Source: Siphonodentalium dalli (Eukaryota; Mollusca; Scaphopoda; Gadilida; Siphonodentaliidae). From it: a stretch of DNA of 64,000 nucleotides. This document shows, in pieces, positions 2,890 through 55,941 of the stretch. The DNA lies in the NCBI GenBank assembly GCA_032622095.1, contig CP136061.1, positions 119,052,754 to 119,116,753 on the forward strand. The letters run 5' to 3'. The translations under genes were made by a program, and so were the position numbers. The notes beneath the pieces were generated by a model, which was not told where the DNA came from, searched no databases, and saw nothing but the letters and a program-made list of their open reading frames with translations. Numbering within the stretch: position 1 is the stretch's first letter; the number at the start of each line of letters is the position of its first letter.

Positions 2890-4165
2890 AATCAAACATC
2901 TTGGAACTGGTCTGGATGAAACACCGATCGATCTAGAATAGCCCGATAAATAAAAAAAACTACCTTGCGATAAGTACCGGTATATGCGATTTAGTGTAAA
3001 GGTTTTCGATTGATTACAAAAGGCTTGCGATTAATCCAATGGTTTGTGATTTATCGCAGATATATTTTCATGCATTGGCATTAATGGACTTGAACCATAT
3101 AAATATAATCCGACATCTTCAACAGGTCTGGGTAAACCACTAATCGATCTATAATAGCATGGTTGGGCTAAAATAGACCGATCGTTCTTTGGCAGCAAGC
3201 ATGCATGTGGGATAAGGCGATCAAACCTTCGCGATAAATCACAAAACAACTTTGCGAAAAATTACAAACACCTTTGCGATAACTCGCAAACCTTTACGAT
3301 AAATCTCAAACATCTTTACGAGGACTCTCAGACTGCATAGTGGGTGATTAATTTTTGCGAATTATCGCAAACATGTTTGAGATTTGTGGCAAACTTTTTT
3401 GGTGCTAAAAATTTCTTAATTTGTGTGTAAACATTATAAATCAGCCATCTTGAACAGGTCTCAGTGAACAACCTATCAAATAATAATTGAACGGTTGGGC
3501 TAAAATAGACCGATCAGTCATTCACGGCCAGATGCAAGAATATTGAGAGGAGCAAAACTTTGCGAAGAATCACAAACACTTTCGCGATAACACGCAAACC
3601 ATTACGATAAATCTCAAACATCTTTACGATAAATCTCAGACTACGTACTGTGTGAATAAATTTTTTTATTTATCGCAAAGATATTTGAGATTTGTCGCAA
3701 AGGTTTTTTTTGCACTAATGGGCTTCTGTGAATATTATAAATCAGACATCTTAAACAGGTCTGAGTGAACAACCTATCAATCTATGCCCGGTCGGACTAA
3801 AATAGACCGATCAGTCATTCACAGCCAGATGCATGAGTGATGAGGGAGCAAACCTTTGCGATAAATCACAAACACCTTTGCGATAACACACAAACCTTTA
3901 CGATAAATCTCAAACATCTTTATGATAACTCTCAGACTACGTACTGGGCGATTATATTTTTGCGATTTATCACAAAGATGTTTGAGATTTGTCGCAAAGG
4001 CTTTTTGCCGATAATGGGCTTCTGTGAACATTATAAATCAGACATCTTAAACAGGTCTGAGTGACCAACCTATCAATCTATAATTGCCCGGATATGCTAA
4101 AATAGACCGATCGGTCATTCACAGCCAAGGGAGCAAATCTTTGCGATAACTCCCAACCCTTTGTA
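2890..4165. repeat. ~300-bp satellite, about 4-5 diverged units
   Basis: The landmark acatctt-aacaggtctg...taaaatagaccgatc recurs at about 2896, 3113, 3441, 3743 and 4039, so the later units are about 300 bases apart. Each unit holds two facing blocks. One is rich in tttgcgataaatc and caaacatcttt; the other is its reverse complement (gcgatttatcgcaaagatg, tttgagatttgtcgcaaag). A single unit can therefore fold on itself. No coding sequence is seen. Confidence 0.8.
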
Positions 4166-5965
4166 AATAGTGTGCGATAAGCAAAATACTCAAAAATGGG
4201 GAGACCATTAACTTTGGTTAATTAAAACTGTTGTTTGAAAAATACCGCTACAGCGCTCACTAGTCCTCGCTACAAGGAGGTGTTGAATGGGTTACCATAA
4301 TTATTATCACTCTCCCAAAAAAATTGCCACGGTGTTCAGTGTTTTGCTTATCGTACACTTACAATGCGCTGTATCAGTAAATGAACAAATACTAAGATAC
4401 ATGTAACACAAAGAGAGTTTAATGTATTTAATATATGATAAAGTTTGGTAAAGCCATAGTTAATAAATTATTCTCCATTCGCATCTATGCGTCAACAAGT
4501 CAGTGGCATTGCCTGATCACCAGAGCCATATAATGTAGAATTTCGCTAATATGGTTTCCAGTTATGGATGAGGTTATTTCCTAGCAAAGCGGAAATGGCC
4601 GAATCGCTCAGAATGATAACCACACATGTAGCCAGACATGTTTTGATAAGAACATGAAGCATCTGGACATTGGAATGGTCTACATGTTCGTGTATATATA
4701 CAGCTAAGCTCTAATTGACCCCTCCCCCTTAACGACATTGGCCACCGATATTACGAGTAGTTGCGAATGTCGGTCAGTGACCAACTTTGAATGTTAATTA
4801 AACCGTAAACAAATTATTAATTGAAATATTGTTTTGTGTATAGTTAATATGGTGCATGGCGCTGATGAAAAGCTGGACTGGGTGTTTACAAGGTGTCCAT
4901 GTAAAAATTAGTGCGGCGTACAGTGGTCGCAAAATATTATTAATAAGACTATAAATATTATCTGCGGTTGCCACATATCAACCACTTGACCATGGTTGAA
5001 CGGCGGTATGGTATAACCGGTGACTGACTGTCATTAATGCCCTACAACCTTGTTAAAGGGGGTGATTAATTAGAGCATAGCTGTAGTGTGTTACTAAAAG
5101 CTTGCGATTGATTCAGTTATAACATGTGTCCCAGAATTGGATCCATATCTCTGAGATTATCCACCATTCCATAAATATATCAGAACAATATCACAGGCGT
5201 TTCGATCAAAAGAATAGCAGAATCCGTATTAACTGGGCGACATGTCATCGCGACATGGCTCTCAAATCACGTTTCGATGAAAATTGAAGAATTTGATCCG
5301 TCGTCCTTTGCACGGGTACTTGTACGTTGTAGCCATCAAACTTGTTACTGACTCAGGAGTCATGACTGATCTGTGACGTCATAACTCTGACTAATTTCTA
5401 CAGAATTGGATGTCTCGTAATCATAGTGATAGTCACCAGTGGTTGACTCTTGTGAGTTAATTGGGCGGTTTATAATGTTGTGAAACTTAAGTATCTGTCT
5501 TTTGTAATTCACAATACTGTTGTGTTGTGCATGTATTAAACCACACTGCACTCAATGACTTTTCAATTTGGCCTAGCTGTCTAGCTCAGTTCACCGAAAA
5601 TTTCTGCTTTCAATAATGTAAACGCCCGTTATGTTTTCGGAGGTTATATATCATCTTGTCCCGTCCATGTACAACCATAATCCACACAGTGCTGACAATA
5701 TTCCAGGTTATTGAGAAGCCAGTTAGGTCCAATTTCACACACACAAAAATATGTTGATGAATTTCAGAGAAGTTACTTCCCTAATCTTAAATCCACCCAG
5801 CGAGCGAACAACGTACCTAAACTGGCATATACTACAAAATGTAAGCCCAGTCCGATTCCAACATAAAATGTCTAAGTCTGATGTTTGTTTGTCTCTTCGT
5901 CCATGTTTATATACTGTAAAAAATCTCAATCGTATCAACTTGAAGTGGCTGGACGCCGCCATTTT
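4166..5965. other. Non-coding stretch, nothing recognised
   Basis: No reading frame here has a recognisable domain, and I found no RNA gene or clear repeat. It probably belongs to an intron of the receptor gene at 7913-8582, or to intergenic sequence. Confidence 0.4.
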
Positions 5966-6096
5966 ATCGAGATCGGCTAGTACCAAATGAATTATCACGT
6001 GATGCCATCACGTGGGTAACACTTGGGTACCGAGATCGCGCTAGTGCCAAATGAATTATCACGTGATGCCATCACGTGGCTAACATTCAGGTTCCG
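5966..6096. repeat. 64-bp tandem duplication with paired CACGTG sites
   Basis: Two units start cgagatcg at 5966-5970 and about 6031. Each contains tatcacgtgatgccatcacgtg, a palindromic pair of CACGTG E-boxes, giving four E-boxes in about 90 bases. Spacing within and between the units is conserved. Confidence 0.75.
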
Positions 6097-7305
6097 AGAG
6101 TGGATAGTACCAACATGGTGTGGTACTATATCAATTTTTAGAACCAAATTCTTCTCAATACCTGTTGGTCTGGTACTATCAGACATATTGACACTACCTT
6201 AGTACCTATATGGCTTATTATTTCTAAGTGTGTATGTTACGGACGACCGATCGTCAAAAACGCGACATCAAAATACACAGTGTACGGCTTATCGGTACAA
6301 ACTATGGAGTATCTTTTACTTGCATATATCTCGCATGTACCCATGTGTATATATAAACGGCTACCAGCATCTGGCCGTTGAAGTATGAGACATTGCAATG
6401 CAGAGTTCGGTCCCATCTCTTCGCTTATCTGAACACTGTCATCATGTATACAGAAGGTAAGGAAATCTCAGTTTTTATTAAAGTCATTGATCTGAGTTTA
6501 TCCGGCCAATTTCCAAATGAATATGGATAGCTCAATTTCTCAGAAGATTGCACAATTAATTGTAACGGACAACTGCGCTCCTCGGGAGACATTCCGTTCT
6601 CGAGCGGGTGACAAATCTTTCCTTACATTTTGTATACGTGGTGGTAGTGTTCAGACCAGCGCGCCTTGCAGTTTGTGAAGAAGGATAACTTTTTTCTCAA
6701 CTATGTGACAGAGCGTTTACTGTCAGTTACTTTTTTTGCGCGATGAATATAAAGAATCTTTAATCTAAAGTGCATGTGTGCAAAGCGTTGAACGCAGTTG
6801 ATCTATATTATGCAATCAGTATCCGTGATTATGCATACACAGTATATCAGTATTTCAGATACATATGTGTCGGCATATATTTGACCCTAGACGTCTAACA
6901 AACAACAATAGATTGCGATTCACTTTCCAAGTACTAGTGGAGTCATATATCATGTCACGAAGCTCTACTCTGGCTATATAGGCCCGCATATATCATATGT
7001 CAACAGTTCAAAGCATGATAACTTTATGATGTTCAGACGGAGAACTTTATATAACATCGAAGAAGTAATGCAGGTAATATATTTCTTAGTTAACACATGT
7101 TCGTTAATGATGCATTGCACAGCTCCAAATTGCATAATTTGTTGGACTTTTATGAGCCGATTTCGATCTGCGTCACTTGTAGTCCTTAAATTTTCACCGC
7201 AATATCAATTCGATGTTTATTGTCAAATCAATCGGCAAACAAAGTTGCCTAAATGGTTCAATCTTGTGCTGGATTCATCGTCTACTATGAAATACATGTA
7301 CACAA
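6097..7305. other. Non-coding stretch, no supported gene
   Basis: An open frame of 123 codons at 7026-7397 on the plus strand has no recognisable domain and runs into a repeat element at 7310, so I do not call it a gene. No other feature is seen. Confidence 0.4.
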
Positions 7306-44673: not shown

Positions 44674-44689
44674 GGTCCGAATCGGCATC

Positions 44690-45095
44690 TCTGGTGTAGA
44701 CTAGGTTTTATTCTAGACCAGGTTTTACTCCAGTTTAAACTAGGTTTAAGTAGGAGTAAAACTTTGTCGTTTTACTGTAGTAAAGCTAGGTTTTGTGGGA
44801 GTAAAACTGGGTTTTAGTGTAGTTAAACCCAGTTTTGTGATAAACTCAGTTTTAGTTTGTGGAATTCGATCTCAATTAAAACTAGGTTTTATTGACGTGA
44901 TAAAGTTATGGTAATATTACTAATTGTTTGTGGTGAATTAGCTATATAATCATCAGTATAAGCTTCGGTATATATGGTTTACGTACCATACGTCTCGTCT
45001 CGAAAATATACCTTTAAATATACTTTGAAAAAACATCAAAGTTAAACCACCCTACCCAAGGTTTTACTAAAACCTAGTTTTGTGGGTTTAATTAT
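44690..45095. repeat. Subterminal array of TAAAACCTAGTTTTA-like motifs
   Basis: Motifs such as actaggtttta, aaactaggttta, aaacccagtttt and aaacctagtttt occur about a dozen times in 400 bases. Most are near-palindromes, so each could be a site for a dimeric protein. The same array lies at the right of copy 2 (about 50490-50890), and a short version is at 46835-46880 and 48430-48500. Confidence 0.75.
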
Positions 45096-45419
45096 TCGGT
45101 CGATTTGTTTCGCCCAGTATTGATGATGTTTCTTCGTGTGTATGGGAGTGTTTATTTTGAATTGGGGGAGGCGCTTATGGTCGGGCGTTTGTCACTCAAT
45201 GTACATGCAGGAGAGTCTTAGTGGAATTCGGGGAGGTGATGTCGGTACTTATAAGATAAACTATGTGCCAGTGTGATGGATGATTTCTTGCTGTATATGT
45301 TTGTTTGCAATTCGCTCGTTCGGATGTCGCTTTGGCGACTGAGAGCATGGGGGGGATCGGACTGATCAGTTTGACACGTTAGGCACGAACATGGCTTTTG
45401 AAACTGATTCCTTATTCAC

Positions 45420-46150
45420 AAAAAGGTCTCTTTCGGTCAATTTGACGCATGGGTTGGTGGCCCGCCCAAATACCCACCAGAGACACCCCAGCCCTCACCC
45501 GGGGGAAGGTAACGACCACCCTGAGGGGATGGAGTATGGACCATTTTGGAGAACTGTAGGATTTCGGCCAATGTGATGGTATGGGTGGGTGGCCCGCCCC
45601 AAATAACCCATATATACAACCCACCATCCCCCACATCCGGGGGGGGGTACCACCGAGGGGGTGAACATGTGATATGGACCATTTTCGAGACTGGTAAGGA
45701 TTTCGGCCAATTTGACGACATGGATGGCCCGCTCAAATGTCCCATAGAAACAACCCACCCCTCAACCCTGGGGGAACCACCCCAGGAGGTGAAATGGGGT
45801 ATGGACCATTTTCTAGAACGGTAAGGATTTCGGTCAATTTGACGTCAGGAGTGGGTAGCCCGCTCCAACTACCCCATAGAAACACCCTCACCCGGGGGTA
45901 CCACCCCGAGGGGGATAACATGGGGTATATGGACCATTTTCGAGAACGGTGGGTGGCACACCCCAAATGCCCCCTAGAAACACCCCAACCCGCAGCCCAG
46001 GGTGCATACCCCATGTTCATCCGCTCGGGTAGAACCACCCGCGGTGAGGTTGGGGGTGTTTCTATGGACTATATTTGAGGGCGGGCCGCCCACCAATGCC
46101 GTCATATTGGCCGAAATCCTTACCGTTCTCGAACATTCTGGAGGGGTGGT
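45420..46150. repeat. ~130-bp G/C-rich repeats in foldback F copy 1
   Basis: The unit contains aaggatttcggccaatttga, then tgggtgg.ccgccc.aaata, then ccatagaaacaccc, then a cccgggggtaccacc-type block and tatggaccattttcgagaac. About five units occur; divergence between them is high. The matching block in copy 2 is 48740-50110. Confidence 0.75.
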
Positions 46151-46321
46151 GGTGTTTCTATGGGGTATTTGTGGCCGGCCCCACCCATTCCCTCAAGAGA
46201 TATTTTTTAGTTCCAAAATTCATGTTCGTCCATGATATTGGATAATATCTAACCGCTATACAACATACCGTGCATTCGTCGTGATTTCTCAAAGCGCACG
46301 GGTTATTCGCCTTATTATTTA

Positions 46322-46712
46322 TGTGGACAGTAGTCTCTATACGGGCGCCTGCGGCGCATAAGATACTATGGGTGGCGGGATGGGGTGGTGGGTGGGAACT
46401 TATCCTTATTACTTATGTGACAGTAGTCTCTATACGGACTCCTGCGGCGCATAAGATACATTGGGTGGCGGGATGGGGTGGTGGGTGGGAACTTATCCTT
46501 ATTATTTATGTGGACAGTAGTCTCTATACGGGCGCCTGCGGCGCATAAGATACTATGGGTGGCGGGATGGGGTGGTGGTGTAAACTTATCCTTATTATTT
46601 ATGTGGACAGTAGTCTCTATACGGGCGCCTGTGGCGCATAAGATACTATGGGTGGCGGGATTGGGTGGTGGGTGGGAACTTATCCTTATTATTTATGTGG
46701 ACAGTAGTCTCT
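46322..46712. repeat. 94-bp tandem repeat, four copies
   Basis: The unit starts gtggacagtagtctctatac and ends tccttattatttat. Four full units and the start of a fifth are nearly identical. This expansion is in foldback F copy 1 only. Confidence 0.92.
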
Positions 46713-46897
46713 AATGCATTGACAAGTAGCGATAATAAACAGACAGACCACGCCTCATATCCTTGCAATTGGACAAGTGTGGCCCACAGGTAGCACAGTC
46801 GACCAAATCTATGTCGTCCCAGCGGTGGAGTAAAACTTGGTTTTACTACTAAAACCCAGTTTAAACTAGATCTAAACTGGAGATGCCGATTCGGTCC

Positions 46898-48411
46898 ATA
46901 CGGGTCAGAAGTTGGTTTAATTGTGTCATTGTCCGCACATAATGAAATTACAATGAAGTCGTTGCGAGTCGACAGTGTGACTAAAACGCTCTGATTTTCA
47001 GTTCATTATCCACTAATAGGCTATTTTAAGCAGATTATCTACCTAAAACACATTCTAGTATAAGAAGATATTGTGAGGGTTTTCGGCAGAACAGGTTGTG
47101 TAGGATCTCCTACCTGTCCTAATACTATTAAAGGGACACAAATTATGCCTGGGTTAACACAGTCAGAGGTATAGGCTGTCTTCCTGCACACACGGAACAC
47201 TATATGTCATTTCCAGCAGAAAGTTGCATTTTAGTGAAAATTTTGAATTCTTCTAAATCTATCACTGCGTTAGTCATTGGAATGGTTATAAATCCAAATT
47301 TATGAATCATTTTTAATTTTCTCAATAACTGCCGCCAATCCGAAGTTATGCTAAAGAACATCTCTAGATTTTTTTTCAGGCTAAAAACTGATGGATATTA
47401 ACACAATTGTGTGCACTGGGGAATTTATTACCAAATGACAATATATATGTTACTATTACACCATTTGTATTAGAATATGGACACATCACTGGCAATCATT
47501 AAAATATACTTTCTCAGATCGTTTCACCCAAAATATTCACCCAATATATACAGAATAAACCGTTTGTCCCATCAGTCACGTTTTGGATTCATAATGTTGT
47601 GGTACATACAAACTATTGAGATACTAAGACTAACTTTTGCCAATACAAACACATTTTCAATTGTTGTAACTATAGCCATGTAAATTATGTCCCACCAGTC
47701 ACAAACTATTATCAAATATCTGAGTTTGTGGACACACACACACCTCATCGAAATGCTGCAATATACCATGTATCATGTTACCAAAGAAACCCTATTCCAA
47801 AGACAATAGATTAGTGTTTAATGCCTTGATTTCTTTGTATGCTGATATATCAACTCCTTGACTAAGTAGTTATATTGCAATTGAGGACTGGCAACAAAAG
47901 TTACAGAGTGTATATTATAGCGCATTTAATATTTAAGACGAACTCCAGATTTTCTATTTACTGAGAGTGTTATGTTTGAATGTGAGATTCAATATCTTAT
48001 TATATAAATGCCTGATGTGACAAGTGAAGCAAGATGTGGTGTTAGATGGGGGGGGGGGTATATTTGTCCCATCAGTCACACATTTCATATCAGATTATCA
48101 GTGGTGTTAAGCCAAAAACATAATTCGGAAATTAAAACTATATTGATATAATTTGTTTCTATATAAATTTACTAGTATCTATATAATAATAAGTTTGTGC
48201 TCTATTTAGAGCCACCAATATTTTGTACCAATTTGTTTTTATTTAGGAGCATCATATATAAAGTATTATTAGATCTGTAATCTATTTCATTACTTGCTTT
48301 GTGTGTTGGACAATCAGTGTATTAGTGTCCAAGGATTATGAGTTACTAGTTCACATAAAAGTTGGTGATTTATTTTGAACATGACCGCCAATATTTTGAC
48401 AACAACTGTAA
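46898..48411. other. Sequence between the two foldback F copies, with 16-mer sites
   Basis: No gene is supported. It holds three sites of tgtcccatcagtcacg type (47565-47580, 47688-47703 with one change, 48065-48080). The same site occurs at 55297-55694. A run of G lies near 48049-48057. Confidence 0.6.
47565..48080 (+). repeat. Cluster 1 of the 16-mer TGTCCCATCAGTCACG (three sites)
   Basis: Sites begin at 47565, 47688 and 48065. The core gtcccatcagtcac is exact at two; the middle one has cccaccag. All read on the plus strand. Cluster 2 lies on the far side of the transposase-like gene. Confidence 0.8.
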
Positions 48412-50902
48412 GGTCCGAATCGGCATCTCCAGTTTAGACCTAGTTTAAACTACCAGTTTAAACTGGGTTTTAGTAGTAAAACCAAGTTTTTCTCCACCGC
48501 TGGGACGACATAGATTTGGTCGATTGCGTCACCTGTGGGCCATACTTGTCCAATTGCAAGGATAGGGGGCGTGGTCTGTCTGTTTATTATCGTTACTTGT
48601 CAATGCATTGTCCGGTGACGCGACCTGTTGTCGCTATCTAATCTTCTAATCAGGCGAATAACCCGTGCGCTTTGAGAAATAACGACGAATGCACGGTCTG
48701 TTGTATAGCGGTTAGATATTATCTAATATCATGGACGAACATGCTTTTCGGAACTCAAAAATATCTCTTGAGGACATGGGTGGGGGCCCGCCACAAATAC
48801 CCCATAGAAACACCACCATCCCTCCACCGGGGGTCGGGGGTACCATCCGGACGGGTGAAAATGGGGTATGGACCCTTTTCGAGAACGGGAAGGATTTCGG
48901 CGAATTTGACGGCATGAATCGGTGGCCCGCCCAAAATACCCGATAGAAACATCACCCCTCACCCCGGGAGAACTGAGGTATGGCAAGGATTTAGGCTAAT
49001 TAATTTGTCAACAAGAGTGGGTGGCCCGATCAAAATACACCATAGAACCCCCTACCACCCACCCCTCACCGGAGGGGGGGGGTGCCACTGAGGAGGTGGA
49101 AATGGGGTACGCCCAAATACCGAATAGAAACACCCCAGCCCTCACCCCCGGGGAATGGTAGCTCAAATAACCCCGTAAACACCCCACCCTCATATCCGGA
49201 CTATGTTCGAGAACGATAAGGATTTTGGTCAATTTGACGACAGGGGTGTGTGGCCCGATCCAAATATCCCATAGAAACACCCTACCCTCATCCCTGGAGG
49301 GTACCACCCTGATGGGTGAAAATGGGATATGGAGCATTTTATTCCTTATTCGCAAAAACATGCCTCTGTCGGTCAATATTACGGCATGTGTAGGTGGCCC
49401 GCCCCAAATACCCCATAGAAACACCCCACCCTCACCTGGGTGTCAGAAAGCGGTATGGACCGTTATCGAAACCGGTAAGGATTTCGGCCAATATGACGGC
49501 ATTGGTGGGCGGCCCGCCCTCAAATAAAGTCCATAGAAACACCCCCACCCTCACCGCGGGTGGTTCTACCCGAGCGGGTGAAAATCGGGTATGGACCCGG
49601 GGTGCGGGTTGGGGTGTTTCTAGGGGGGCATTTGGGGTGTGACACCCACCGTTCTCGAAAATGGTCGATACCCCATTTCACCCATCGGGGTGTTACCCCC
49701 GGGTGAAGGTGCTTCTAGGGGGTAGTTGGAGCGGGATACCCACTCATGACGTCAAATTGACCGAAATTCTTACCGTTCTCGAAAATGGTCCATATCCCAT
49801 TTTCACCTACTGGTGTGGTTCCCCCAGGGTTGAGGGTGGGCTGTTTTCTATGGGACATTTGATTGGGCCATCCATCCATGCCGTCAAATCGGCCATAAAT
49901 CCTTACCTCGACAATGGCCCATATCCCATGTCCACCCCCGGATGTGAGGGGTGTGGTGTTTCTATGGGTTATTTGGGGCGGGCCACCCACCCAAAATTGG
50001 CCGAAATCCTTACAGTTTTCCAAAATGGTCCATACTCCATTCCCCCTCAGGGTGGTCGTTACCCTCCACCGGGTGAGGGCTGGGTGTCTCTGGTGGGTAT
50101 TTAGGCGGGCCACCAACCCATGCGTCAAATAGACCGAAAGAGACCTTTTTGTGAATAAAGAAACAGTTTCAAAAGTTATGTTCGTGTCTAACGTGTCAAA
50201 CTGATCAGTCCGATCCACCCATGCTCCCAGTCGCCAAAGCGACATCCGAACGAGCGAATTGCAAACAAACATATATAGCAAGAAATCACCCATCACACTG
50301 GCACATATTTTGTTATAATTTATCTCATAAGTACCGACATCGCCTCCCCGAATTCCACTAAGACTCTCCTGCATGTACATTGAGTGACAAACGCCCAAGC
50401 ATAAACGCCTCCCCCAATTCAAAATAAACACTCCCATATACGGGAAGAAACAGCATCAATACTGGGCTAAAACAATCGACCGAATAATTAAACCCACAAA
50501 ACTAGATTTTAGTAAACCTGGGGTAGGGTGGTTTAACTTTGATGTTTTTTCAAAGTATATTTAATGGTATATTTTCGAGACGAGAAGTATGGTACGTATA
50601 AATCATATATACAGAAGCTTATACTGATGATTATATAGCCAATTCACCACAAACAATTAGTAATATTACCATAACGTTATCACGTCAATAAAACCTAGTT
50701 TCAATTGAGATCGAATTCCACAAACTTAAACTGAGTTTATCACATAGCTGGGTTTAACTTCACTAAAACCCAGTTTTACTCCCATAAACCTAGTTTAACT
50801 ACAGTAAAACCAAGTTTAAATCCTACTTAAACTTAGTTTAAACTGGAGTTAAACCTGGTCTAGAATAAAACCTAGTCTAAACCAGAGATGCCGATTCGGA
50901 CC
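48412..50902. mobile_element. Foldback element F, copy 2 (2.5 kb), inverted relative to copy 1
   Basis: The ends are ggtccgaatcggcatctcca (left) and, on the minus strand, ggtccgaatcggcatctctg (right). Its right half, read on the minus strand, matches 44674-45600 of copy 1 nearly base for base, including gatgtcggtacttataagat and the TAAAACC array. The middle has more units of the ~130-base repeat than copy 1 and lacks the 94-base expansion. A 240-codon frame at 49715-50437 (minus) crosses repeats and the arm and has no known domain. Confidence 0.8.
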
Positions 50903-51882
50903 ATAGTGTCAACTTTTAAAAGATCTTTAACTATTATTACATCTGGAGTCATCTTCATTGCTTGACTATTTGTTATATAATACTTATAACTAAAATTTGT
51001 ACATGAAAACTATATACACTGGTAGGTGATTTGCTATAAGTACTGAGCCAATATAAAAACGAACACAATATTTTGAACAAAACTGTAAATATTTCAATCA
51101 CAGCTGTAATAGTTTGCACCCAATCAGAAAACTGGTGCATAGCTCACTTGGTTGATTTGTGTATGGAGTATGGGTGTTTTTCATGTTGATGAATTATAAA
51201 CTACAAAAATAAATCCAAATAAGACATGGTGAAACCGCAAACCAAGAGTGCTGCTGAAAGACAGAACCCATAGACATAAGTTAAAAAAAGGATGGCACAT
51301 ATGAAGACTACAAAAAAAACAGACCAAATATCGAAAGCAGTGGGAGATGAAGAGAAAACTAACTATGACAGAAGAACAAAAGGCAAACAAAAGACAAAAC
51401 GATACAGAACGAAAATCTCAACACAGGTAGGTTTATTTTAAATGAAAGAACTTTCATACAAGTTACCATACTTCTAATCTGTAGTTTAGCATTTTGTATA
51501 ACCCCAATTCCAGGACATCTGACATATATAGGTGTCCTGGACAGGGTCACATACATGTAATGCCCTGTGATTTTTTTTTTTTAAGTCCAAAACAAGAATT
51601 CTCCCAGAAAGATAGAAAATTGAGAGTTAACATATCAAGGCCTTTTCAAAAACACCTTTCAAATTTTGAATGTTGTGTTACTTCTGCCTATCATCTTACA
51701 CATGACCTTGATCTCATATCTCAAAAACAAATGAGCCAATAAGGTTGAAATTAGGTACATGGGGGCATCTTGCCACGAGAAAAAAATTTAATGGGCCGAG
51801 GAGCCTATACAGTATGACCTTGATCTTGGCGACCATGACTTCAAATATCAAGAATGACTGGTCCGATAGGGCTGAAACTTGG

Positions 51883-51920
<38 letters not shown>

Positions 51921-51951
51921 GTACCTTGCAGAAGAAATCATTGTATCGGGT
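50903..51951. other. Non-coding stretch with bivalve-like degenerate monomers
   Basis: No gene is supported. From about 51700, two diverged ~110-base monomers contain (t)gaccttgatct, aatgactggtccgatagg or aatgagccaataagg, gttgaaattaggtac or gctgaaacttggtat. A (TA)n run lies at 51886-51919. These monomers grade into the satellite that follows. Confidence 0.5.
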
Positions 51952-52318
51952 CATATAACCTGTGCGATGTGACCTTTACCTTGATACTGAGATCGGGTCA
52001 TATAACCTGTGCGATGTGACCTTTACCTTGATACTGAGATCGGTTCATATAACCTGTGCGATGTGACCTTTACCTTGATACTGAGATCGGTTCATATAAC
52101 CTGTGCGATGTGACCTTTACCTTGATACTGAGATCGGGTCATATAACCTGTGCGATGTGACCTTTACCTTGATACTGAGATCGGGTCATATAACCTGTGC
52201 GATGTGACCTTTACCTTGATACTGAGATCGGGTCATATAACATGTGCGATGTGACCTTTACCTTGATACTGAGATCGGGTCATATAACCTGTGCGATGTG
52301 ACCTTTACCTTGATACTG
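51952..52318. repeat. 47-bp satellite, eight near-identical units
   Basis: The unit gggtcatataacctgtgcga followed by tgtgacctttaccttgatactgagatc is repeated eight times with only a few single-base changes (ggttcat in two, acatgtg in one). Such uniformity indicates recent amplification. Confidence 0.95.
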
Positions 52319-52442
52319 ATGACCTTGAACTGATATATAAAAATTACTGAGCGAATGAGTTGAAAATCTGTAACATGGTGCAACTTTGCATGTGGGGTGA
52401 TTTAGAACAGAAAACATCCCATATAGCTCTACAAAGCCGCAT

Positions 52443-52550
52443 AGTTGGGTAACCTACATATGAGAGGCCAAATTCACATTTAATAGCCATGCATTAGGCT
52501 TAAGATTAATTACCTATTAAATGTGAATTCGGTCTCCCATAGGTATATGC
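52443..52550. repeat. Inverted repeat near the transposase-like gene
   Basis: The left arm gaggccaaattcacatttaat and the right arm attaaatgtgaattcggtctc pair, with further partial pairing outward (gggtaacctacata and tatatgctgctggtaac). It lies about 300 bases upstream of the gene at 52840 and could be a small foldback insertion. Confidence 0.65.
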
Positions 52551-52839
52551 TGCTGGTAACAATTATAATGACATACAGACTTTAAATGATACTTTCAGTT
52601 TGTTATTAAATTTGCTACAAATGAACCCAATAGTTCAATGAAGAATGCAGAATCATAAGAAAATAAGTGATTTTATTGACCAATTTTAGCGCCTCAATTC
52701 TGCATGCAAATTTAAAAGCCACCACCAAACAGTTATTATTGTATAACATCATATATATACATGTATATATACATAGCTACTAGTATTGTCTTTATAACTG
52801 AACTCATCATTGTGTAATCTTTATTGCATGAGGCATTTG

Positions 52840-54681
52840 AAGATGAAGCAATGTGAAGTTCATGATGACAGTCCTGGGGTGACAACTTCAACAATGACTC
52901 GATATCTTAATCGTGTCAGCTCAAAACTCCCAAACAGTCCTAGGAAGCGAGCAAAGGTCGTGCAGAAACTGGCTTTAAAAGTTTTGCCTTTAACATTTCT
53001 GCCGCCTGCAAAACGCCAAAAGGCACATCAACAAATTGAAAACCAGACACTTCACAATGTGATTAAATTCTATCAACAGGACGATATCTCATCTGCAGCT
53101 CCTGGAAAAAAGGATATTTCATCATCCTCGAAAAAACGGAAAGAAATCCAAAATTCAGAAGCGATATCTCCTACTAACCATCGGTGAAACCTTTGAGCAG
53201 TTCAAAGTTGAATTTCCAAAAGATAAAATTGGAAAATCAAAATTTTGCAACCTCCGACCAAAGCATGTATTATTGCGTGAGGACACACCTTCTAATATAT
53301 GCTTATGCATATATCATGAAAACATAAGGCTTCTGTTAGAAGCCCTGTCAATATGCCCTTCTTCAACAGCAGAGTTTGTTAATATAATTGTATGCAACGA
53401 TGAGAGTGAGCATTGTATGCTAGGAAAGTGTGAAGAGTGTGGTGACCTGAATAAATTTGATGAAGTTGTAGAAAGGTCTGACAGTTTTTTTAAAGTGGCC
53501 CTCTCACCTTCAAAGGATGGTGCAAGGGAGATGATGAAAGATTGTTACGGGTGAAAAAGAATGGTGATGCTAAGGAAGTCATTGATTTGTTGAGGTCAAA
53601 ATGTGATGATTTTCTGAGACATGTCTATGTAAAGCGCATTCAAGCAAAGAAATTTCATGATTTGAAGGAAACTCTCCAACCAGGTGTTTTGTTAATTCAA
53701 ACAGATTTTAGTGAAAACTTCCAGCATAAATTTCAGAATGAAATCCAATCGGTGTATTGGGACACCATGCAATCAACATTGTATACTTCAATGATATATT
53801 ATCTGGATAATGTGGAGGATACAAAGTATGTGCCTTACGTCATAATATCAGATTACAAAAATAATGATAAATACGCAGTAAGTGTTTTCAATGAAGAATT
53901 AATTAATCATTTCTGCAACAAGTATAACTGTGCTGTGAGAGAAGTAAATTTTCAATCAGATGGTACAGCACAACACTTCAAGCAAAAATTCAGCCTATTT
54001 TATTTCACATCCAGTAAATTTCCAGCTAAGTGGCATTTCTCGGCCACTTCACATGGCAAAGAATGCATTGATGGCATAGGTGGTACAGTTAAACGTAGAG
54101 TTGCTGAAAAAGTTCGTGCGGAAGGCATTGACCTGGAATCCTCCTCACCATTCGCCCAGGTTGCCAGGACTACTTGTCCAAATGTAAACATATTATTTTG
54201 CAGCAAAACCACTGTTGAAATAAGAATGCCAGAACTCAATGAATTCTGGACCCCTGAAGGGAAAGAGATTAGAACACTCCCAGGCAGAAGAGGTCAGCAC
54301 CACTTTGAGAGTGTTGAACCGTACATTATAAAGCATGGTCAACACTCTCTGACTGAGCAATCAAAAAATTAGAAATATTATCATTCAAATCGGGAGTAAC
54401 AGAACAACTCAAAATTCAAACTACATCCACTGGTAGTATTCAATCAAGCTCTTGTGGGAAATGGGTTGTTGTCAATTATGAAGATGAGGAGTATTATGGG
54501 ACAATATTGAACACAACAAATAACTTCTTCAAAATAAGGTGCCTGGTCCGTAATCGCTATGGAAACACTTATACATTTGAGCCATAAACGGATGCAGTGT
54601 GGTATGGATTGTCACAGATAATCAAAGTATTAGGTGATGTACCTGTTTTAATAAATTCAAGAGGTGTGTATAAATTTTCCT
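52840..54681 (+). pseudogene. Transposase-like gene of an uncharacterised animal protein family, frameshifted
   Basis: I recognise the family by its motif order but know of no established function. In order: RYLNRVSSKLPNSPRKRAKV (52890-52950); APGKKD (53098); after a frameshift in an A-rich run near 53130, KRYLLLTIGETFEQFK (53160-53205), KIGKSKFCNLRPKHVLL (53229-53275) and CLCIYHENIRLLLEAL (53300-53345). After a second shift near 53540: VYVKRIQAKKF (53625), IQTDFSENFQHKFQNEIQ (53695-53745), SDYKNNDKY (53850), FQSDGTAQHFKQKF (53950), WHFSATSHGKECIDGIGG (54030-54085) and KRRVAEKVR. After a third shift near 54356 comes KWVVVNYEDEEYYGTIL (54460), a barrel-like C-terminal domain, with one stop at 54585. 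The Asp in DFSEN and in SDG could be part of a DDE/RNase H site. No intron is needed. The start is uncertain. Confidence 0.7.
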
Positions 54682-55296
54682 AAGATTAGCATTTGACGTT
54701 CCAAACTACTGAAAGTAGTAGATTTTGAAAGTTCTACTTAATTTGGATCTCATCATCTGTTTGATATTATGTGCCAACAACCATTATTTACTGAATCAGC
54801 AAAACAGGTTCTATGAATTTTCAATGAAATATATTCTCAATTCAGTGTTCTGATTTGTTACATGTTATTGTTGAGTTGTCATTGTTTAATAGACAAATAA
54901 AACTTTCCATACAGTGAACTGTTTTCTGTATTTTGGATACCTGATTATACACTATAAATGTCCCATATCCTGTATTAAAACACCCTAATGATGATTCTAT
55001 GGAATAGGATACTGCCATATAACACAATGTAGGTACTACCATATATTGTATGACCAGTTTACAGGATATGGTATAATGTATATATATGCTGACCCTATAT
55101 TTCCATTGCTGATTAAAGTTTGGAAATACCTGGCAAGCATACCATACTTGCCCTTTATATCCAATCACATCCAGCAACCACTACAACACATAGTGGTGCG
55201 CCTGTCTGATGCCATAAACATCATTTGTTTACCACAGAGATAAAATGGAATAAACTTCCCTTTACACAAATACATAAAAGTTAAGAATTTCAGTGG
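54682..55296. other. Sequence downstream of the transposase-like gene
   Basis: It is A+T-rich and non-coding. Open frames on either strand have no domains. It may be the 3' part of the element that carries the gene. Confidence 0.35.
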
Positions 55297-55694
55297 TGTC
55301 CCATCAGTCACAAAGGTGCTGTCCCATCAGTCACGTGGATTCCTTCATAGCATTTCGGTTTCAAAATGAATGCACCACCAAGACTTGATTTTTCTGTTAG
55401 AAAAATATAATGTTTCATTTACATTGATGTTATTACTGAATTTCAATTTTTGGTATGTCATCAGTCTGCGTAGAAGTGCCAAACACTTTGTCCAAAACAT
55501 GTCCCATCAGTCACGCAGAATGTTTTATATATATATATATGGCCGGAGGATTGGACATTTAAAAGAGATACCCACTATTGTTAAGAGACTTGATTCACCT
55601 TCTTTTGAGCATAATTTAGTTATCTTTAATCTATTTGCACGAGCATGGTCAATTGTAGAAAAAACTAAATTTATGGTTTGTCCCATCAGTCACG
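55297..55694 (+). repeat. Cluster 2 of the 16-mer TGTCCCATCAGTCACG (four sites)
   Basis: Sites begin at 55297, 55320, 55500 and 55679, all on the plus strand, with the core gtcccatcagtcac exact in every one. They lie 0.6-1.1 kb downstream of the transposase-like gene. Such iterated sites near an element end could be binding sites for its transposase. Confidence 0.85.
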
Positions 55695-55941
55695 CATGGA
55701 ATTCACCTATAGTAATGTAGACTGGTTCATGGCGGTCGGTACCCATCGAAAACTTGTACAGTCATGTGGAATGCTTTCCGTTTCTTCCATAAGCTCTGAA
55801 AACAATTAAGTCTCCGTCTCATCATATATGTTCCCCAGACGAGTTGATCTAACGAGAGCCGCATCGAAACGGGGTAACGTCTGTCACATATGCAGTGATC
55901 GTGTTGGTCATGTATGTCTCATTTTAAGATTGCATCCCTTC

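Follow-up and report, generated by a model that had tools for sequence, protein, structure and literature searches.

The window analysed here, 64,000 nucleotides of the scaphopod Siphonodentalium dalli (GCA_032622095.1, contig CP136061.1, positions 119,052,754 to 119,116,753, forward strand), contains a whole but broken copy of a transposon of about 8.5 kb, ends included, at 47205–55707 on the plus strand. The element has short terminal inverted repeats, a 4-bp target-site duplication, a gene for a protein with three invariant Asp positions, and an array of 16-bp sites divided between its two ends. The sites and their positions are conserved among copies, and relatives with different site letters keep nearly the same positions. 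It is probable that the element is a decayed cut-and-paste DNA transposon with an Asp-Asp-Asp (DDD) transposase and a 4-bp staggered insertion, and that the sites form a docking array for that transposase, as is predicted here.

Ends, sites and gene of the window element

The 16-mer TGTCCCATCAGTCACG has seven matches with at most three mismatches when both strands of the 64 kb are searched, all on the plus strand, with starts at 47565, 47688 and 48065 on the left and at 55297, 55320, 55500 and 55679 on the right. Four are exact, two carry one mismatch and one carries two. Shuffled windows gave a mean of 0.30 matches and a maximum of three, and 0 of 100 shuffles reached seven. The preliminary description of this DNA had claimed seven same-strand copies, three to the left and four to the right of a transposase-like gene and none elsewhere in the window, and it is borne out at this threshold on both strands; with up to four mismatches there are eight forward matches and one reverse match. 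Left site 1 (47565–47580) lies 361 bp from the 5' end of the element. Left site 2 (47688–47703) follows 123 bp after it, compared with 166–169 bp in eight short copies, and there is an alignment gap here; left site 3 (48065–48080) is an extra site that is also present in the long copy L014. On the right, the two members of a 23-bp doublet (55297–55312 and 55320–55335), recovered by the 16-mer search, the offset table and the quartet scan described below, are followed by a site at 55500–55515, 208 bp from the 3' end, and by the terminal site at 55679–55694, which starts 29 bp from the 3' end and adjoins the terminal repeat. All seven sites are on the plus strand.

The ends at 47205 and 55707 were obtained by alignment of copies, and TATA is found on either side of them (47201–47204 and 55708–55711), which supports the earlier suggestion of a large transposon. 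The left terminal inverted repeat (47205–47215) reads TGTCATTTCCA here and GGTCATTTCCA in the other copies compared from group A, the subfamily that includes the window; the right one (55697–55707) reads TGGAATTCACC. Across the aligned copies the left end is GGTCATTTCCA or GGTCAATTCCA and the right end TGGAATTCACC or TGGAATTGACC, with small variants. A perfect 4-bp duplication flanks 16 of the 22 insertions with both ends assigned (14 of 20 if L024 and L025, whose ends were chosen with a score favouring a matching duplication, are set aside), and in three more (L006, L008 and L013) three of the four bases match. L042/L043, with outer flanks identical to those of L044/L045, were counted once; outside the count are L009, L010, L012 and L040/L041, with an end that was not located or lay outside the fetched sequence, and L046, for which a three-of-four match came from a search requiring at least that. 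By raw count, A or T makes up 52 of the 64 bases in the 16 perfect duplications. Terminal inverted repeats, a duplication of fixed length and dispersed copies, the marks of a cut-and-paste element, are all present.

Searched as an exact 15-mer, the site occurs at 420 places in the genome (2.23 Gb, 9 contigs), compared with none for the backwards control, and these are grouped in clusters with repeated spacing. Eight short copies (L001–L008) were picked among the first 100 of the 420 places for having both site groups close together. In all eight the two left sites are 166–169 bp apart and all sites have one orientation; seven have four right sites, with steps of 23 bp, then 183–190 bp, then 174–178 bp (127 bp in L002), and the eighth, L003, has a right group of three, one member of the doublet being lost. 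In the plan common to most copies examined, the left sites are about 361 and 529 bp in from the 5' end and the right sites about 29, 205, 392 and 415 bp in from the 3' end; the recurrence of this plan supports the earlier view that sites are iterated at the element ends. Among 11 window-family copies, the first left site lies 354–364 bp from the end in 10 and the second at 520–532 bp in nine; the last right site is at 29 bp in 10, the next at 202–208 bp in nine, and the doublet at 388–394 bp (nine copies) and 411–417 bp (eight copies). The short group A copies L003–L006 and L008 retain about 650 bp of the left and 550–560 bp of the right of the window element, with other interiors. Positions quoted for L002, L003, L004, L007, L009, L014–L016, L018, L019, L023, L046, L048, L053 and L054 refer to the reverse complement.

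The transposase gene was located by tblastn with the L022 and L024 proteins at 52846–54677 on the plus strand, between the two site groups as had been described, in four pieces with three frame changes, which is why we call this copy broken. In alignment A1, three Asp columns are invariant in all eight sequences and are spaced 85 and 37 residues apart; in the window they correspond to 53704–53706 (D71, DFSEN), 53959–53961 (D156, SDGTAQHF) and 54070–54072 (D193, HGK..DGIGG), all on the plus strand. Around HGK, positions with Trp, His, Gly and Lys are also invariant. The pattern fits an Asp-Asp-Asp catalytic triad. The mapping of catalytic residues onto an RNase H fold, proposed earlier, thus yielded three invariant Asp but not the fold, the AlphaFold2 model having a mean predicted local distance difference test score (pLDDT) of 36. 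A Pfam look-up, which had been proposed, returned no family above cut-off, a few weak matches being discarded, and a sequence search of the PDB gave no convincing solved relative. The L024 and L025 elements each contain a single open reading frame (ORF) of at least 100 amino acids from ATG, the transposase (668 and 688 amino acids), which means that, if the element itself makes the protein that binds the sites, that protein would be the transposase. Two other candidates were dropped: a first exon near 51228–51430, for which tblastn gave only an E-value of 4.1 at 51285–51395, is not claimed, and viral_contigs as a source of relatives gave 26 pattern matches, none of them a relative.

Genome-wide, 123 matches to the protein were found and merged into 112 loci. 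In L009 (C4), with a 56% identical gene copy, the same 16-mer flanks the gene with two left and four right sites, and L010 (C4), with a 77% identical copy, keeps three degenerate right-hand sites; as other gene copies are flanked by the same 16-mer, sites and gene belong to one element. Among the first 100 of the 420 places, a transposase match lies within 6.5 kb of one of 29 clusters, that of the window; L009 and L010 are two further clusters with the gene. Counted over five site families, at least 18 of the 112 transposase loci have a family site no more than 6.5 kb away, compared with about 0.16 expected; five of the 18 supplied site sequences, so that 13 are independent of that choice, and the number is a lower bound as the site lists for three of the five families are the first 100 of 420, 154 and 278 places. 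Neighbouring sites no more than 10 kb apart are on the same strand in 268 of 270 cases, among the matches listed for the five families. Clusters of the 16-mer with other members of the protein family, which the preliminary description had proposed to look for, were found in L009 and L010. Dispersal of the 16-mer with no link to the protein family was to count against the idea; the 16-mer is dispersed yet clustered, and it is linked to the gene in some clusters. Pairs of relatives among L015–L021 are 98.8–99.8% identical over most of the fetched stretch and, being nearly identical, are recent and large, or duplicated; the L015–L016 match ends at 5512/5662, a possible element end.

Conservation of the array in subfamilies and relatives

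The site array is strongly conserved, and the number and position of sites are kept in most copies. Two subfamilies were distinguished among the copies, A and B, and between them identity at the left end is 0.987 in the sites versus 0.433 outside, and at the right end 0.928 versus 0.397 (L013 and L014 left out). Ranked by conservation, the first two 15-bp windows at the left end coincide with the two sites, and the first four at the right end also fall on sites. With blastn, the window element matches the short B copies L001, L002 and L007 only at the sites and the right terminus, and gives no match to the long B copy L013.

Relatives with transposases about 30% identical (48–49% for the closer L011 and L012) have sites that differ in sequence and sit at almost unchanged positions. 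The family sites are GTAACCTCTGTCAC in L011 and L012, GTACGTCCGTTAC in L023, GTTGCGTCAGTCAC in L024, GTCCCGTACAACAC in L025, GTAACACACGTGAC in L046, GTAATGTCAGTCAC in L048, GTAACGCACGTAAC in L050 and GTCCCGTTAGTCAC in L052. Offsets in L025 are 362 and 527 bp on the left and 29, 197, 386 and 409 bp on the right, and in L024 they are 359 and 525 bp and 29, 195, 393 and 407 bp, extra sites being present in both; in L046 the assigned end is 341 and 508 bp away from the starts of the two left sites. In most families the last site adjoins, at a near-constant offset, a terminal repeat resembling TGGAATTG.CC. Four relative-family sites have 154, 278, 95 and 50 exact occurrences genome-wide, compared with 1, 5, 2 and 0 for backwards controls, and they likewise form same-strand clusters. 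Within an element the mean identity between sites is 0.966 (150 pairs), a value raised by the mismatch limit used in site finding, and between the eight family consensuses it is 0.645 (28 pairs). The site lists of the eight loci were compiled by hand from a per-locus search; L009, L012, L023, L051 and L053 (same family, 13-bp or divergent sites) were kept out, and in L048 and L050 imperfect matches lying outside the array were dropped as well. The array is not opposite to the gene in the window, L011, L023 and L025 families, unlike in the L024 and L046 elements; of three more loci near an L024 site, two agree with the opposite gene direction and one is mixed.

A scan for the four-site pattern (quartet) was run on the window and 20 fetched transposase loci, of the 112, with spacing ranges fixed after the plan had already been seen in several families. 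Fourteen of the 21 loci were positive, or 12 of 21 after L011 and L022, positive only via satellite arrays, were dropped, compared with 0 of 65 controls (five window pieces and 60 block shuffles, which cannot contain satellites). Judged by its own family pattern, L011 does have a real array. Six of the nine later-fetched loci (L046–L054) were positive, two of which (L046 and L048) had been seen beforehand; the quartet of L051 does not enclose the gene, and L053 has an expanded array of another kind. The array is oriented to enclose the gene in 11 of 21 loci: the window (WIN), L009, L011, L012, L023, L024, L025, L046, L048, L050 and L052, with the right-hand group alone seen in L012, L050 and L052. 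When both flanks were considered, the plan was found in 5 of 20 loci, compared with 1 in 80 controls with swapped flanks; three of the 20 (L046, L053 and L054) also show it on both sides when the right flank is inverted. A looser measure, any shared direct motif, did not discriminate (8 of 20 loci versus 19 of 80 controls), partly because related families share sites.

In the protein tree, a group of 14 with full support contains all eleven loci whose array encloses the gene, together with L010 (degenerate right sites), L051 (non-enclosing array) and L022, in which a 16-bp satellite fills the flank. A second group has seven members (L015, L018, L021, L047, L049, L053 and L054), three of which have related arrays. 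L053 and L054 show doublets 20–22 bp apart at steps of 160–195 bp. With up to three mismatches, L053 has 12 plus and two minus sites to the left of the gene and one plus and four minus to the right; L054 has eight plus and five minus to the left and one plus and four minus to the right, and one minus match inside the gene. These counts hint that arrays of the second clade may be inverted, although L054 is mixed. In the third, L049, four copies of a 13-mer (GCAAGATACGTTA type) lie on one strand at 210–598, upstream of the gene, with steps of 192, 169 and 15 bp that resemble a mirrored quartet.

The consensus sites of the eight families were framed by us as 14-mers from GT to AC, and these outer bases are common to all eight. 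Positions 5 and 10 are complementary in six of the eight and 4 and 11 in four; against a palindrome, the pair 3–12 fits in none, 6–9 in two and 7–8 in one. The site can be described as a partial palindrome or just as well as a pair of GTnnC-like half-sites. The same-strand arrangement that the preliminary description thought unusual is seen, and its significance may be small: if a dimer reads the site, direct and inverted orientation may carry little information because the site is partly palindromic. The L024 site TGTTGCGTCAGTCACA resembles a C/EBP-CRE composite site, and a bZIP-like reader is conceivable; the N-terminus of the transposase is rich in basic residues. Helical phasing of the site intervals is suggestive only, with R of 0.56 at 10.5 bp for 33 hand-compiled intervals (0 of 5000 uniform resamples), which are not independent, and p of about 0.04 with distinct values.

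Mechanism and alternative explanations

That relatives carry their own repeats at near-equal distances suggests an old docking code for the transposase. The transposase would cut at the short terminal inverted repeats (GGTCAATTCCA type) and insert with a 4-bp staggered cut, and the 14–16-bp sites would serve as its docking sites. The right end, with its terminal site, a further site and a doublet, could then be read as a different object from the left end, with its two sites from about 360 bp inward, and one left and one right end would be joined in an ordered complex, as in Tn7-like elements, so that the unequal ends would enforce left-right pairing. Short gene-less copies would be mobilised in trans, and their keeping of both ends and the sites with other interiors is what would be expected. 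Protein and sites would diverge together while the geometry of the complex stays fixed, and letters that change where positions hardly do are likewise expected in that case.

Several points weigh against this reading. Binding of the transposase to the sites is itself a prediction from sequence, the triad is read from the alignment, and the AlphaFold2 model, made on the lone window fragment, was not used given its low pLDDT. The window copy is broken and departs from the plan, left site 2 being displaced and a third left site added; L002, L013 and L014 have also lost sites or have them shifted from the usual places, and the left offset in L011 is 436 bp, with 358 bp in its short relative L042/L043. 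No matching duplication was found in three of the 22 insertions (L026/L027, L042/L043 and L011), and the scoring of the L024 and L025 ends counts on the same side, as does the mismatch limit behind the within-element identity. Because copies inherit their sites, shared orientation and spacing are not independent events. Among the first 100 places, 28 of the 29 clusters are without a nearby gene; the array is opposite to the gene in the L024 family and L046, and the plan was not seen in the second protein clade.

The sites could instead bind a host transcription or chromatin factor for expression or insulation, with only the terminal repeats mattering for movement. The dyad-like outer bases (GT..AC), as for many dimeric factors, and the spacing of most sites by roughly one nucleosome repeat would suit such a factor, but gene-less copies keep the sites, in most families the terminal site sits beside a terminal repeat with little change of offset, and the letters vary between the eight families of one genome where constancy would be expected; we regard this explanation as unlikely. 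The long intervals, about 360 bp from the left end to site 1 and mostly 165–198 bp from site to site, lie mostly near one or two nucleosome repeats, and intervals show a tendency to group at distances of one helical turn; it can be imagined, though it seems to us unlikely, that the array is a chromatin ruler, the transposase reading a ladder of positioned nucleosomes with the sites in linkers. If so, the left tip would have two nucleosomes set aside and the right tip would have none, and the identity of the ends would be encoded in chromatin, not in naked sequence.

Mere inheritance from an ancestral repeat-array end, of which the sites would be relics, agrees with the descent of all copies of a family from few masters. 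It is very improbable all the same, given that the DNA between sites is down to about 40% identity while the sites are still at 93–99%, and that the plan is common to families with unlike site letters. The presence of several copies in one orientation would also be expected of iterons that replicate an excised circle, direct orientation mattering as in plasmid origins. Yet the sites are divided between both ends over hundreds of base pairs, the L024 and L025 elements are without a second ORF of at least 100 amino acids from ATG, and insertions have the terminal repeats and 4-bp duplication of cut-and-paste elements, which makes iterons a very improbable explanation.

Nested repeats, known systems and significance

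A foldback repeat at 48412–50902, recognised by its inverted ends, is nested in the element and is not part of it; a second copy is at 44674–46897, and both share the ends GGTCCGAATCGGCATCTCC with at most two mismatches. The long gene-less copy L014 aligns up to window position 48310, just before the foldback, which fits a nested insertion. A repeat search placed a 47-bp tandem array at 51945–52319, inside the element. The proposal that a foldback copy and the 47-bp satellite lie within the transposon is supported by these coordinates and, for the foldback, also by the L014 alignment. In L013, about 21 tandem copies of a 164-bp unit occupy 3022–6437 of the long gene-less element, and L009 has a related unit; satellites here may arise from the interiors of transposons, the 47-bp array of the window included. 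In L053 a 90-bp tandem array (5602–6877, reverse complement) lies downstream of the transposase match, and its repeats may be coding given a 1456-residue open frame at the locus.

A DDD triad and a 4-bp duplication reportedly define the Sola superfamily, as Bao is said to have set out in 2009, and the duplication and three invariant Asp found here fit it, a likeness drawn from these features. Sola termini are reportedly GRG/CYC; those of L024, L025 and L046 are GGG..CCC and those of the window family GGT..ACC. Sola2 is described, in passages of PMC3627910, with an AT-rich 4-bp duplication like that found here, terminal repeats of 12–21 bp and an 888-residue transposase; parts of PMC4455052 treat the Sola subgroups, and parts of PMC10294476 give Sola counts in bivalves. 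For Sola, our literature searches gave no report of a phased asymmetric site array like that seen here. Literature searches returned no paper for the 15-mer, nothing about transposons by title or abstract for the transposase motif words, and only unrelated work for Sola with 'subterminal'. No description of such an array was met in the open literature searched, which leaves subscription papers and Repbase Reports mostly outside, and one may exist there or in other sources.

Tn7 likewise has asymmetric ends that differ in their transposase sites, three on the left and four on the right according to a portion of PMC13370975, although binding is predicted here; for Tn7-like and I-F3 CRISPR-associated transposons (CAST), a portion of PMC10201428 states that site spacing matters and follows the helical pitch. 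Tn7-like elements are bacterial, with several genes and targeted insertion, whereas here there is one gene in an animal-type genome, the spacing is much longer and the sites have one orientation across both ends. TnsB and partner genes of the Tn7-like type were not met in L024 and L025, with one ORF of at least 100 amino acids and no Pfam family above cut-off. KolobokP, from molluscs and other animals, is similarly a DDD/E transposon with short terminal repeats, as far as excerpts of PMC9587614 describe it, but neither its long direct repeats at the termini nor its second nuclease gene is seen here. In blastn of 11 copies against the window element, direct repeats at the termini, about 450 or 660 bp long as in KolobokP, were not found; left ends matched left ends and right ends matched right ends, with no such match between left and right.

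How a transposase distinguishes asymmetric ends is a question still open in general, and families in which the letters shift while the positions stay, across transposases about 30% identical, are a natural experiment on how ends are told apart. Sister families with different letters in one genome are ready tests of specificity. The plan can be scanned for without the protein, so that gene-less copies may be matched to their masters in unannotated animal genomes.

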